64,000 bases of DNA, taken from the NCBI RefSeq assembly GCF_023155855.1, contig NZ_JAKNUT010000005.1, positions 186,001 to 250,000 on the forward strand, written 5' to 3'. This DNA comes from Microbacterium aoyamense. Its GTDB lineage: Bacteria; Actinomycetota; Actinomycetes; Actinomycetales; Microbacteriaceae. Positions 34,563 through 38,515 of this stretch are shown here, one piece after another. The position numbers and the translations under genes were made by a program. Within the stretch, counting starts at the first letter, position 1; the number at the start of each line of letters is the position of its first letter. The notes under the pieces are model-generated. The model did not search any database and was not told where the DNA came from. It worked only from the letters and a program-made list of their open reading frames with translations.

Positions 34563-35147
34563 ATGCTCCTCACTCGACCGACCGTCCTCGAGAACGAGTG
34601 GGTACGCCTCGAGCCGCTCTCGCCGGACCACGCACCCGCGCTGGGAGAGGCATCCATCGGTCTCGAACATGCCTGGTACACGTCGGTCCCGACGCCCGAG
34701 AGCGCGGCGGCGGACGTCGCGCAGCGCCTCGCGTGGGTCGCCGAAGGGCACATGAACGCCTGGGCGGTGCGACGACTCGACACGGACACGGTCATCGGCA
34801 CCACGACGTTCTGCAACATCGACCAGGCGAACCGACACGTCGAGATCGGCCACACGTGGATCGGGGTCGAGGCTCAGCGGACGGCCGTGAACACGGCATC
34901 CAAGCTCCTCCTCCTCGGCCACGCGTTCGATTCGTGCGATGCGATCGCGGTCGAGTTCCGCACGCACTGGCACAATCGCCAGTCGCGCGCCGCCATCGCG
35001 CGCCTGGGCGCGAAGCAGGACGGCGTGCTGCGCAACCACCGCCTCGGTCCCGACGGCACGCTGCGCGACACGGTGGTGTTCTCGATCCTGCCGACCGAGT
35101 GGCCCGCCGTGCGCCTCGGCCTCATCGAGCGCCTCGCCCGCCACTGA
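34563..35147 (+). CDS. GNAT family N-acetyltransferase (RimJ/RimL type)
   Basis: 194 aa. N-terminal strand VRLEPLSPDHAPAL, core VIGTTTFCNIDQANRHVEIGH and the acyl-CoA region TASKLLLLGHAFDSCDAIAV, then FRTHWHNRQSRAAIARLGAK, fit RimJ/RimL-like acetyltransferases. Substrate could be a protein N-terminus or a small amine; the neighbouring exporter hints at resistance, which is only a guess. Confidence 0.87.
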   Translation: MLLTRPTVLENEWVRLEPLSPDHAPALGEASIGLEHAWYTSVPTPESAAADVAQRLAWVAEGHMNAWAVRRLDTDTVIGTTTFCNIDQANRHVEIGHTWIGVEAQRTAVNTASKLLLLGHAFDSCDAIAVEFRTHWHNRQSRAAIARLGAKQDGVLRNHRLGPDGTLRDTVVFSILPTEWPAVRLGLIERLARH

Positions 35148-35160
35148 CGACCGCCCGCGA

Positions 35161-35206
35161 GCCTCATTCGGACCCGCACGCCTCATTCGGACCCGCGCGC
35201 CTCATT
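35161..35206. repeat. 19-bp tandem repeat
   Basis: GCCTCATTCGGACCCGCAC at 35161 recurs at 35180 with one change, and a partial third copy starts at 35199. It directly precedes the palindromic element. Confidence 0.8.
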
Positions 35207-35207
35207 C

Positions 35208-35278
35208 GGGAATGGGGTGCCCCATTCCCTTTGGGGCGCGAGATCCCGCGCCCCAAAGGGAATGCCGTGCCCCAATCG
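35208..35278. repeat. REP-like palindromic element, upstream copy
   Basis: About 70 bp that contains a perfect 17-bp inverted repeat (35224-35240 with 35247-35263, 6-nt loop). An ungapped alignment by eye gives about 80% identity to 36396-36467 on the other side of the AbiEi-like gene. Confidence 0.7.
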
Positions 35279-35392
35279 CGAGGAGTGCGCGCCGGATTCC
35301 GGACTCCTCCACAGAAGCCGACCCGGTGCAGTTGCTCAGAGCGTGCTGGCGATGAGAGCGGTCGATCGACCGCAGTGTTCGAGGATGACCCG

Positions 35393-36343
35393 ATGCCTCG
35401 CATCCACGTGCACCGCTACAAGGACCTGATCGCCTCCGGCGCATCGAAGCGCTCGCTCGCCCAGGCAGTGGCCGACAGCGCGCTGGTGCGGATCCGCTAC
35501 GGCGTCTACGCGGATGGCGATGCGATGCGTGCCGGATTTCCGGCAGACCGTGTCGTCGCGCGCGCGACCGCGGCACAGCTCGTGACTGCTGATCCGCTCG
35601 TGTTCTCGCACGAGACGGCGGCGGCTCTGCACGGTCTGCCGCTGTATCGGCCCTCACCGGATCGGGTGCACGTCATCGCACGCCCGGAGCGTCCGGGTGC
35701 CGTCGCCGGGTTGGTGCGTCATCGCGGCGATATCGAGGAGTTCGACGCGACGGACGGACTGCGGTTCACCAGCCTCTTGCAGACGGTCGCCGACGTGGCC
35801 CGGACTGCCTCGTTCGAGCAGGGCGTGGTCATTGCGGATGCCGCGCTCAGACGTCTGTGCTGGGACGAGGGCGGGTCCTATCGCGCTGATGACGCACAAG
35901 CGGTCCGCGAGCAAGTGCTCGATATCGTGCGGCGCTCGGCACACGGTCAGAATCGGGCGCGACGCGTCGTGAGTTTCGCGGATGGCCGCGCACAGCTTCC
36001 CGGCGAAAGCGTCAGTCGCGTGCGACTGCATCAGCTGGGCTTCCGAGCAGTCGGGCTCCAGCACGCGGTGCCGGCGCCTGGCGGTTCCTCGTACTTCGTC
36101 GACTTCGCGCTGGACGAGGTCAACGCGTTCGGTGAGTTCGACGGAGCCATCAAGTACGTCGACGGAAGGATGCTGGACGACCGCACCAGCAGCGAGGTGC
36201 TCGACCGCGAGAAACAGCGCGAGGACTGGATCCGGGGCACCACGCAGCGCCGCATGGCGCGCTGGGGCTGGCCGCACATCGGAACAGCCGACCAGCTGGG
36301 CGCGCGCCTCCGCACCTTCGGGATCGTCCCGCCCGGTCTGTGA
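35393..36343 (+). CDS. AbiEi-like antitoxin-domain protein with nuclease-fold C-terminus, orphan
   Basis: 316 aa. N-terminal residues 5-75 resemble the winged helix of type IV antitoxins: RYKDLIASGASKRSLAQAV, then VRIRYGVYA. A central region has VFSHETAAALHGLPLY. The C-terminus FVDFALDEVNAFGEFDG, then LDREKQREDWIRG, resembles DUF559/Vsr-like PD-(D/E)xK proteins. No AbiEii-type toxin gene is next to it. Single-gene members are common in actinobacteria and their role is unclear. Flanking palindromic repeats on both sides make it a candidate cassette. Confidence 0.75.
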   Translation: MPRIHVHRYKDLIASGASKRSLAQAVADSALVRIRYGVYADGDAMRAGFPADRVVARATAAQLVTADPLVFSHETAAALHGLPLYRPSPDRVHVIARPERPGAVAGLVRHRGDIEEFDATDGLRFTSLLQTVADVARTASFEQGVVIADAALRRLCWDEGGSYRADDAQAVREQVLDIVRRSAHGQNRARRVVSFADGRAQLPGESVSRVRLHQLGFRAVGLQHAVPAPGGSSYFVDFALDEVNAFGEFDGAIKYVDGRMLDDRTSSEVLDREKQREDWIRGTTQRRMARWGWPHIGTADQLGARLRTFGIVPPGL

Positions 36344-36395
36344 CGATCGCGCCCACAGTCGCTCTGACGGGGCTGAGCGCTGAGCCCGCCAGACC

Positions 36396-36467
36396 GGGAT
36401 TGGGGCGGCCCATTCGCCTTGGGGCGGGCGATCCCACGCCCCAACGTGAATGGGCCGCCCCAATCCC
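36396..36467. repeat. REP-like palindromic element, downstream copy
   Basis: It starts GGGATTGGGGCGGCCCATTC and ends CGCCCCAATCCC, so its ends are inverted copies of each other. About 80% identical to the 35208-35278 element. Confidence 0.7.
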
Positions 36468-36571
36468 AGCACCACAGGCCACTCCCTACGCCCAACGTGA
36501 ATGGGCCGCCCCGATCCCAGCGCCACTGGCCACCCCTGCGCCCCACGTGAATGGGCCGCCCCAATCCCAGC
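36444..36571. repeat. 27-bp direct repeat in three copies
   Basis: A 27-bp unit starting ACGTGAATGGGCCGCCCC recurs at 36444, 36495 and 36545 (spacing 50-51 bp) with at most one change between copies. It is the right arm of the adjacent palindromic element, so the element has been multiplied here. The rest of 36344-36592 shows no gene. Confidence 0.8.
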
Positions 36572-36592: not shown

Positions 36593-38515
36593 TCAGCCGT
36601 CGATGACCGCGACCAGCTCGTCGAGGAAGCCGGCGAAGTCCGACGACCGACGTACGATGCGCTGCACGCTGTCGCGCTCGCTGAAGACCTCGACGAACTG
36701 CTCGAACACGGTCTGGAACGCCTCGCGATCGTTCTCCGAGAACGCGACGAGCGCGACCACCTGCACACGGCCCTCGCCCCACGGGATCGACGGGTCGGCG
36801 ATGCCGATCGCGATCGAGGTGCGCGAAGCGGTCATGCCGATCGCGTGCGGCACGGCGAGCGCGTCGGTGAAGGCGGTAGACGAGAGCTCTTCGCGCTGGA
36901 TCGCGCGCTCGACGTAGTCGTCGTCGATGACGCCCTGCGCGATGAGCAGCGAGCCGAGGCGATGGATGACGTCATCCGTCGACTGTCCGTCGAGCCCGCG
37001 CACGAAGGCGTCGGGCGAGAAGTACCGCTCGAGCTCCTCGCGGAGCCGCGCGAGGCGGCGCGCGCGCCGGATCCGGCCGGCGGCGGCCTGCACGCGCTCG
37101 ACATCGGCGTCGGTGAGGAACGGCTGGATCCGCACGAACCGGTCGCCCGCGACGGCCGGATCGATCGTGGTGAGCACGAGGTCGGAGTCGATGGAGGACC
37201 AGTCCGGGTCGACGCGCGTCTCGACGCCCACGACCTCGATCGCCTGCCCGAGCGAACGGTCGACCGATGAGCGCAGCAGCTCGTGCAGCTCGTAGTACCC
37301 CGGGCAGACGATCGTCGCGGCGAGCAGCTGGTCGGCGCGCCGGCTGCGCTCGAGCCTGCCACCGACGTGCATCGCGATGTAGGCGATCTCGTCGTCCAGG
37401 AGCGGGATGCCGAGCCGCTCGTGCAGGCCAGAGGCGATGAAGACGGCGACCTCGAAGATCATCGGGTACGTCGACTTGAGCGAGCGCGTGAGCGGATTGC
37501 GCGACCACGCCTGCTCCTTCGCGCGATGCAGCAGGTTCTGCACGTGCAGCGCGAGGCGCAGGATGAAGTCCTCGTGCGCGATGTCGACGAGGAACTCGGA
37601 TGCCGCCTGCCCCACGACATCGCGCACGACCGCTTCGACCTCGGGCTCGAGGCGCGATCTCGCGTGGTCGGAGGGCGTGTCGGTGCCGGGCGCGACGACA
37701 CGCGTGAGCACGAGCGTCGCGAGGTGCTGCAGATCCCCGGCGCCCAGGCGCACGTCGAGGTGCTGCTCCGACAGCGACGCGAGGATCGCCGCGACCTCCT
37801 GCTGCGCGGGGCGCACTTCGGCGGAGCCTGCGCCTTCGAGTCCACGATCGCGCGACACACGGTCGGCCGCGATCGCGATGTGCATGACGACATCGGCGAT
37901 GCCGATCTCGTTCACGAAGTAGCCGAGCGCGCCGAGCTGGGTCACGAGATCGTTCTTGAACGGGCCGAACGCGCGGGCGCCGACCGAGCCTTCGCCGAGG
38001 GTGCGGCGCAGCGCCTCGAGGTCGAAGGATCCGGCATCCATCTCGTCGTGGGCGAGCCGTGACAGCAGCCGCCGCTGAGCCATCTCGGTGCCGCGCAGGC
38101 GGGCTTGCGAGGCGGAGCGCTCGAGGGTGAGCTCCGTTCCGCCGAGCAGGCTGCGCACCCGGGCGAGATCGGCGTCGAGCGTCGCGGGGCTCACGTGCAG
38201 GGCGTCGGCGGTCTCGAAGACGTCGATCCCGTCGGGGGCGTCGAGCAGTCGCCTCACGAGCGTGTGCAGGCGATCGCGGGGCGCGTCGGCGCCGACCGTC
38301 ACGCGCAGCGCGGCCGCGGCATCCGGACCCGAACGATAGCCCTGGGGGCCCGACTCGATCGCGGATCCCTGCGGCACACGGGCGTTGACGGCCGTGACGT
38401 ACGACCGGATGCTGCGGGGCGTGACACCGAGGCTGTCGGCGAGGCTGGCCGCCGTCGCCCAGTCGCCGTCGCGCGCGAGGAGCCCCAGCAGGCGGTCCTG
38501 TCTCGCTCTCGTCAC
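36593..38515 (-). CDS. mtlR: PRD-containing mannitol operon regulator (BglG/MtlR family)
   Basis: 640 aa, GTG start at 38515. Two helix-turn-helix units come first (RQDRLLGLLARDGDWATAAS and VFETADALHVSPATLDADL). Two PRD domains follow, with conserved histidines in NEIGIADVVMHIAIA and DEIAYIAMHVGGRLE. A GatB-like EIIB region has its cysteine in TIVCPGYYELHELL. An EIIA domain ends the chain, with the phospho-histidine in AVPHAIGM. In this family PTS phosphorylation sets activity and the protein activates mtl transcription as a DNA-binding activator. It diverges from the mtl operon it probably controls. Confidence 0.92.
   Translation of the reverse strand: MTRARQDRLLGLLARDGDWATAASLADSLGVTPRSIRSYVTAVNARVPQGSAIESGPQGYRSGPDAAAALRVTVGADAPRDRLHTLVRRLLDAPDGIDVFETADALHVSPATLDADLARVRSLLGGTELTLERSASQARLRGTEMAQRRLLSRLAHDEMDAGSFDLEALRRTLGEGSVGARAFGPFKNDLVTQLGALGYFVNEIGIADVVMHIAIAADRVSRDRGLEGAGSAEVRPAQQEVAAILASLSEQHLDVRLGAGDLQHLATLVLTRVVAPGTDTPSDHARSRLEPEVEAVVRDVVGQAASEFLVDIAHEDFILRLALHVQNLLHRAKEQAWSRNPLTRSLKSTYPMIFEVAVFIASGLHERLGIPLLDDEIAYIAMHVGGRLERSRRADQLLAATIVCPGYYELHELLRSSVDRSLGQAIEVVGVETRVDPDWSSIDSDLVLTTIDPAVAGDRFVRIQPFLTDADVERVQAAAGRIRRARRLARLREELERYFSPDAFVRGLDGQSTDDVIHRLGSLLIAQGVIDDDYVERAIQREELSSTAFTDALAVPHAIGMTASRTSIAIGIADPSIPWGEGRVQVVALVAFSENDREAFQTVFEQFVEVFSERDSVQRIVRRSSDFAGFLDELVAVIDG

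Follow-up and report, generated by a model that had tools for sequence, protein, structure and literature searches.

The window, by which we mean the whole 64,000-nucleotide stretch of DNA that was analysed, belongs to a genome of 3.9 Mb in 18 contigs (G000). At the locus described here, one open reading frame stands between a GNAT acetyltransferase gene and a convergent gene for a PRD/PTS-EIIA transcriptional regulator, with palindromic repeats on each of its sides (Table 1); its start is an in-frame start within a longer open frame. A preliminary description of this DNA had called the gene an orphan without a toxin neighbour, which agrees with the identity of the flanking genes, and no AbiEii nucleotidyltransferase (DUF1814) toxin was found when both adjacent genes were checked. 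The best 80 named relatives of the window protein come from Microbacterium (74), Humibacter (2), and other actinobacteria (4), and the genome is accordingly assigned to Microbacterium.

Table 1. Positions of genes and repeats at the window locus (numbered from the first letter of the window), and of one locus in genome G080
Feature	Position	Strand	Remarks
GNAT acetyltransferase	34563..35147	+	left neighbour; adjoins the PTS regulator at empty sites
Three head-to-tail 19-bp units (CATTCGG type)	35154..35210	+	pitch 19 bp, as for the palindrome sites
Upstream F-F-R-R element	35207..35277		F sites 35211, 35230; R sites 35249, 35268 (35268 by eye)
AbiEi-Vsr-like gene	35393..36343	+	316 aa; predicted AbiEi-type reader (~2-199) and predicted PD-(D/E)XK Vsr-like nuclease (~200-316)
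Downstream F-F-R-R element	36395..36467		F sites 36399, 36418; R sites 36437, 36456
Extra right-arm copy	36488..36518	-	R site 36507; partner 36488 by eye
Extra right-arm copy	36539..36568	-	R sites 36539, 36557
PRD/PTS-EIIA transcriptional regulator	36593..38515	-	right neighbour, convergent
Locus in G080 (L270)	C5:276500-294000		

The AbiEi-like N terminus that had been proposed for this protein was found both by profile and by predicted fold. PADLOC AbiEi models match residues 14-165 (E down to 5e-13); the window protein itself has no match in Pfam or NCBIfam, although 16 of 29 homologs match the Pfam family AbiEi_4, with 2.6e-5 as the best E. In an AlphaFold2 model (mean pLDDT 92), similarity to AbiEi of S. 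agalactiae covers residues 2-197 (6y8q; Z 8.0, rmsd 7.3 over 170), and similarity to Rv2827c covers residues 5-216 (1zel; Z 7.1). The nuclease-like C terminus suggested earlier was also borne out when its structure was checked, as residues 200-316 have a predicted Vsr-type fold, similar to that of the homing endonuclease I-Bth0305I in its catalytic domain (3r3p, Z 8.9), of the endonuclease-like protein NGO0050 (3hrl, Z 8.9), and of Vsr itself (1cw0, Z 8.2). Two mitoribosomal chains reach Z 9.1 over the same part, and a Z of ~8-9 is not decisive by itself. The acidic/lysine core (E205, D237, E248, D250, and K254) is invariant in 29 and in 64 aligned homologs, a pattern that fits a PD-(D/E)XK-type nuclease. 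Searching solved structures with a profile returned a single match (E 0.37) that was discarded. Based on the model and the conserved residues, the window protein is predicted to be an AbiEi-type reader fused to a Vsr/homing-endonuclease-like nuclease.

The upstream element of ~70 bp has perfect arms of 18 bp (35223-35240 and 35247-35264; a 17-bp stem had been reported), and the downstream element, as described before, is 80% identical to it and has perfect arms of 20 bp. Further copies of the right arm lie at 36491-36518 and 36541-36568, two besides the element's own rather than the three that had been counted, and the 19-bp repeats noticed at the same time are present as three head-to-tail copies. 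Because all of these sites lie on one 19-bp pitch, each palindrome is made of two forward and two reversed sites (F-F-R-R). The downstream element matches copies elsewhere in its own genome with E values of 1e-18 to 1e-8, and a search of the entire window against Rfam at gathering scores gave no match. Two paralogs in the same genome (L002 and L003, with 44% and 34% identity) have different flanking motifs of their own, with site spacings that include 18-19 bp.

Both-sided repeats at homologous genes

Homologous genes are flanked by long inverted repeats that agree in sequence across any one gene but vary from gene to gene. In 350-bp flanks of 31 loci, 340 cases of a 7-mer repeated exactly 19 bp away were found, distributed over 41 of 62 flanks; the same count was 3.5 (scaled) in distal stretches and 0 in gene bodies. 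Framing was then scored by a de novo search for a 14-mer motif on both strands, in which a locus passed if a strong motif occurred two or more times on each side; this search, with its controls, was used instead of a shared-k-mer test and an 8-mer scan, both of which were oversensitive to GC-rich words. A both-sided motif was present in 81 of 101 unique loci, or 91 of 112 when L039 and ten duplicate loci are included; the loci dropped from counts were L039 and L295, which lie at contig starts, the ten duplicates, and L111, which has a short flank. One base predominates in two of the 81 passing motifs, that of L124, which is a C run, and less clearly that of L119.

Among the 73 Microbacterium loci whose flanks were long enough for controls, 63 were framed on both sides (62 without the C-run word of L124). 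In the controls, 0 of 73 stretches taken 850 bp away passed, as did 13 of 73 combinations of an upstream flank with the downstream flank of another locus; most of these 13 join genes with similar motifs. The commonest site spacing was 19 bp, with 203 cases spread over 59 of the 85 strong unique loci. The 20 unique loci of 101 without a both-sided motif count against the reading that we favour below, and at some of these (L002, L031, and L071) repeats can be seen that came second in the search or were found on one side. At L024 and L026, the unit is repeated in tandem in the flanks, with a period of 41 bp or 79 bp, in place of single F-F-R-R elements.

The pairing of gene and repeat recurs in other actinobacterial genera. 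At non-Microbacterium loci, both-sided repeats were found in 13 of 26 cases and in 0 of 26 distal stretches, often with a spacing of 19-21 bp (14 of 27 with L295, which was dropped; L282-L284 and L288 are also in the first set). Three Tsukamurella records among these 26 are annotated as AbiEi antitoxin, hypothetical protein, and DUF559. Some homolog was detected at E 1e-3 in 52 of 59 Microbacterium genomes, and a family profile at E 1e-20 found members in 128 of 198 sampled genomes of the order, from 52 of 72 genera. We regard the gene-repeat pairing as well supported.

The similarity of the motifs rises with the identity of the proteins that they frame. Over 68 loci thinned below 85% identity, the Mantel correlation had a rho of 0.39 (0 of 1000 permutations), although such permutations leave some effects of common descent in this and the following values. 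When the two halves of the protein were compared over the same 68 loci, the AbiEi half given the nuclease half had a partial r of 0.36 (0 of 1000 permutations), and the nuclease half given the AbiEi half had a partial r of 0.04 (187 of 1000); in a run that included duplicate loci, the values were 0.37 and 0.08 (12 of 1000 for the nuclease half). These correlations suggest that the specificity signal for the repeat motif sits in the AbiEi half and not in the nuclease half, and it is very probable, judging from the sequences compared, that the protein recognises the repeat sites.

Dispersed elements and the junctions that hold them

We counted pairs of exact sites with the 19-bp pitch across 59 Microbacterium genomes, and all counts are lower bounds. 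The genome of the window has 6 GGGGCG pairs, some far from the gene, and larger populations were found in G006 (77 pairs), G080 (62), G074 (49), G077 (44), and G011 and G071 (38 each); 40 of the 59 genomes have 0-3 pairs, and the reversed-pattern control gave 0-2. Of the 17 genomes with a close homolog, 14 had at least four TYGGGGCG pairs, versus 5 of 42 others, where a close homolog is one of at least 240 bits (a bit-score cut of our own rather than a tree clade) and the 17 genomes include the source genome.

Pairs of CGAGTCCA occur in 1 of 59 genomes, G010, which has 11 of them and whose gene is framed by the CGAGTCCA motif. Those of CGAGACCC number 35 in G013, 26 in G062, 22 in G028, and 12 in G002, with 0-9 elsewhere and a pattern control of 0 except for 5 in G028; this motif frames the genes of G013, G028, and G002 (L034, L104, and L036) and, by eye, both sides of the gene in G062. 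For CGAGTGCA, there are 21 pairs in G028, 10 in G032, 7 in G069, and 0-4 elsewhere, and G028 has two homologs and both element families.

Several genomes count against the favoured reading. In G080, with its 62 pairs, a close homolog was not found, and the nearest homolog has 44% identity and, by eye, another flanking motif; this population is possibly an orphan one left after gene loss. The G004 homolog (C1:1920513-1921395) matches in two overlapping frames, the AbiEi part followed by the nuclease part, and is either a broken gene or a two-protein form; the genome nonetheless keeps 11 site pairs. Three genomes with a close homolog have few pairs (G024, 0; G030, 0; G026, 3). From the counts as a whole, we conclude that the repeats form intergenic populations in many genomes, mostly where the matching gene occurs. 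The preliminary view of the repeats as borders of a cassette holds as far as their framing of the gene is concerned and is too narrow otherwise, as they are also a dispersed family, private to each gene, in many other gaps.

The intergenic position of the elements rests on a codon-usage score, by which 0 of 86 elements were coding-like compared with 78-86% of background windows. A simple GC3 gene caller placed 13 of 52 elements (an overlapping set) within coding sequence; both methods are rough, and we trusted the codon-usage score over the caller. Around the 86 elements, the neighbouring genes are convergent in 31 cases, tandem in 44, divergent in only 4, and undecided in 7, and most of the elements are thus not promoter-like.

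Elements of the CGAG type are exactly 78 bp long in 66 of 68 cases, and those of the GGGGCG type are 63-65 bp. Because the search for elements required an exact F-F pair, the R half is the fairer test of conservation, and in four genomes its sites keep the majority base at 95-97% of positions compared with 66-74% in the spacers. In G010, the two element halves agree at 89% of site positions. The spacer arms match each other better within an element than between elements in G013, G028, and G062 (0, 0, and 1 of 2000 permutations), with inner-arm matches of 0.77, 0.79, and 0.64 within and 0.64, 0.52, and 0.50 between elements, respectively; in these genomes, the hairpin thus persists as its sequence changes. 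Arm-to-arm matching was not above chance in G002, G010, and G080, the other three of the six genomes tested (G071 was left out), and covariation of the palindrome as a general rule was rejected since it appears in only 3 of 6 genomes.

Spacers were also compared between genomes. For the GGGGCG type, the spacers of 34 site pairs of 27 bp from three genomes had an identity of 0.569 within versus 0.315 between genomes (0 of 2000 permutations), a likeness that points to copying or homogenisation inside lineages. Spacers of the CGAG type resemble each other more inside a motif subtype than across subtypes (0 of 2000), and within-genome values were not above those for genomes sharing a subtype (G062, 0.563, versus G062-G002, 0.571), nor appreciably higher in the G028 comparison (0.575 within versus 0.566 for G013-G028). 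Mean spacer identity within a genome was 0.54-0.65, with a best pair of 0.83, in four genomes. Given this divergence, recent dispersal is not evident; the exception is a set of three near-identical linked copies in G010 (L185). That such copies are scarce also counts against the favoured reading.

The region of the PTS regulator was compared in 30 genomes, the source genome included. The gene lies nearby in 17 (in G081, beyond the GNAT gene) and is absent from 13, one of which is cut by a contig end. In 8 of these 13, GNAT directly adjoins the regulator, with gaps between protein matches of 43, 43, 56, 72, 136, 249, 260, and 282 bp, whereas the distance in occupied junctions is 1341-1452 bp in the six measurable genomes. 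These lengths indicate that the gene and its repeats come or go as a unit, and the empty sites that they reveal in relatives accord with the repeat-bounded cassette first proposed. What would have refuted that proposal was a gene core to the genus, with repeats just as frequent at many ordinary gaps; the gene is not core, its close form occurring in 17 of 59 Microbacterium genomes, and the repeats do lie in many ordinary gaps, as a dispersed family.

Some empty junctions hold other palindromes, and that of G012 holds, by eye, a solo F-F-R-R element of its own type. In the cassette-less junctions L214, L212, L237, L239, and L236, which have the same PTS regulator, the palindromes are unrelated and some are F-F-R-R-like, which suggests that several repeat families may share this gap as a hot spot. 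At a second orthologous junction, a solo element is present in G013 and G004; G020 has a 49-bp gap, G008 and G014 have no such element by eye, and G011 has three GGGGCG-type elements of its own in a 1269-bp gap that contains other sequence too. A similarity search with the L142 region gave some match in 35 of 37 genomes and, besides G013, a single alignment across the element in five. At ~2660-2800 of L142 lies a recurrent sequence of 45-60 bp that has multiple matches nearby in many Microbacterium species; it is a separate repeat and is perhaps coding.

Interpretation of the gene-repeat pairing

The explanation that we favour, and consider somewhat probable, is that the gene and its repeats form a self-contained, REPtron-like gene-repeat system with a different enzyme, where binding, cutting, and copying by the protein are what we infer. 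The AbiEi half would recognise a short site private to each gene lineage, and the recognised arrangement would be F-F-R-R on the 19-bp pitch, with a site-to-site length of 63-78 bp in the families that were measured; it has copies on both sides of the gene and, in many genomes, at tens of intergenic positions. The nuclease half would most likely act at the elements, perhaps on a hairpin or cruciform form of them, and this action could drive or maintain element copying within the genome. The repeats themselves are likely to be mobile, to judge from their sequences. That this protein spreads them is an evenly balanced proposition, drawn by analogy with the RAYT tyrosine transposases that are thought to spread REPINs (PMC3116915).

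The main competing explanation, which we rate as unlikely, is that the repeats are an operator array for a protein that acts as a repressor or organises the chromosome, so that the AbiEi module controls a dispersed regulon together with its own gene and the nuclease is secondary or dormant. There is precedent in PMC7319586, where AbiEi of S. agalactiae and Rv2827c of M. tuberculosis bind inverted repeats in their own promoters, four of them in the case of Rv2827c, and the far better conservation of R-half sites than of spacers would suit an operator. An operator array accounts less well for the repeats that lie downstream of the gene, for the invariant nuclease core, and for the dispersed elements being mostly not promoter-like.

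A role in defence is improbable. The enzyme would attack invading DNA and be restrained by chromosomal copies of its site, the elements titrating it or marking self. AbiEi-like and PD-(D/E)XK folds occur in defence systems, the PADLOC AbiEi models match, and the close form of the gene is patchy. The suggestion of a defence unit in the preliminary description found no backing, in that no homolog was detected at E 1e-5 among 50,697 phage records and neither gene adjacent to the window gene is defence-like; four plasmid records contain homologs. Defence also has no need of private repeats that track the reader half, and the same junction is kept across many species.

Slightly less probable still is that the elements are ordinary REP-like bidirectional terminators lying beside the gene by chance. 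They occupy convergent and tandem gaps, and the element-less relative G001 has at the second orthologous junction, by eye, a terminator-like hairpin followed by T residues. Chance terminators, however, leave the private both-sided motif of each gene, its correlation with the AbiEi half, and the concentration of elements in genomes with the matching gene without an account; termination could be a by-product of the elements. A classical homing cassette, whose nuclease would cut the empty GNAT-PTS junction so that the gene is copied in by recombination, is favoured by the similarity to I-Bth0305I (Z 8.9) and by the clean occupied and empty sites, but we rate it as very improbable; intact repeats flank the inserted gene, so that insertion leaves these sites whole, whether or not they are what the nuclease would cut, and solo elements lie at many unrelated gaps.

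If the system of gene and private repeats is as proposed, it would place in a functional context a very common orphan family, members of which are now annotated as AbiEi antitoxin, DUF559, or hypothetical protein, and REPIN-like repeat populations would have arisen a second time with an unrelated enzyme. The chances seem even that orphan AbiEi-nucleases make up an unrecognised large class of repeat-spreading systems in Actinomycetes, a convergent and transposase-free counterpart of REPIN-RAYT. The dozens of natural protein-site pairs would be a ready code for DNA choice by AbiEi-type readers, and the system would offer a simple way to test the persistence of repeats within genomes. Among the papers listed by searches of an open-access library, none appeared from its listing to describe such a gene-repeat pairing.

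Among known systems, the AbiE type IV toxin-antitoxin systems share with the window protein the AbiEi fold, which its N-terminal two-thirds is predicted to resemble; members of the AbiEi family bind inverted repeats (PMC7319586). Here, by contrast, no AbiEii/DUF1814 toxin is adjacent, a predicted nuclease is fused to the AbiEi part, and the repeats are both-sided and dispersed. The C-terminal part has the predicted fold of Vsr, I-Bth0305I, and NGO0050 but differs from them in its fused AbiEi reader, in the dispersed repeats that frame it, and in being encoded by a free-standing gene between two others.

The closest likeness is to REPIN-RAYT. According to PMC3116915, PMC3733652, and PMC8266576, one gene is flanked by its own palindromic repeat, which also forms dispersed extragenic populations; gene and repeat co-evolve; and some REP families lack a dedicated transposase. 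Compensatory changes in REPIN hairpin spacers are described in PMC3116915. A gene flanked by its own palindromic repeats, which are also dispersed in intergenic DNA, is what we find here, as are inverted site doublets of fixed spacing that are capable of forming hairpins (F-F-R-R of 78 bp or 63-65 bp). Mobilisation in trans by a Y1 transposase was considered and rejected because such enzymes are absent from 58 of 59 Microbacterium genomes: Y1_Tnp (PF01797) matched only in G063, which has 0 GGGGCG pairs, and in neither G000 nor the large-population genomes, in a search that matched the family in 5 of 14 control genomes. The two systems thus differ in their enzymes and sites. RAYT is an HUH/Y1 transposase, whereas the protein described here combines an AbiEi-type part with a predicted PD-(D/E)XK enzyme, and its elements consist of four sites, F-F-R-R, on a 19-bp pitch, rather than carrying the GTAG or CGTC tags of the literature.
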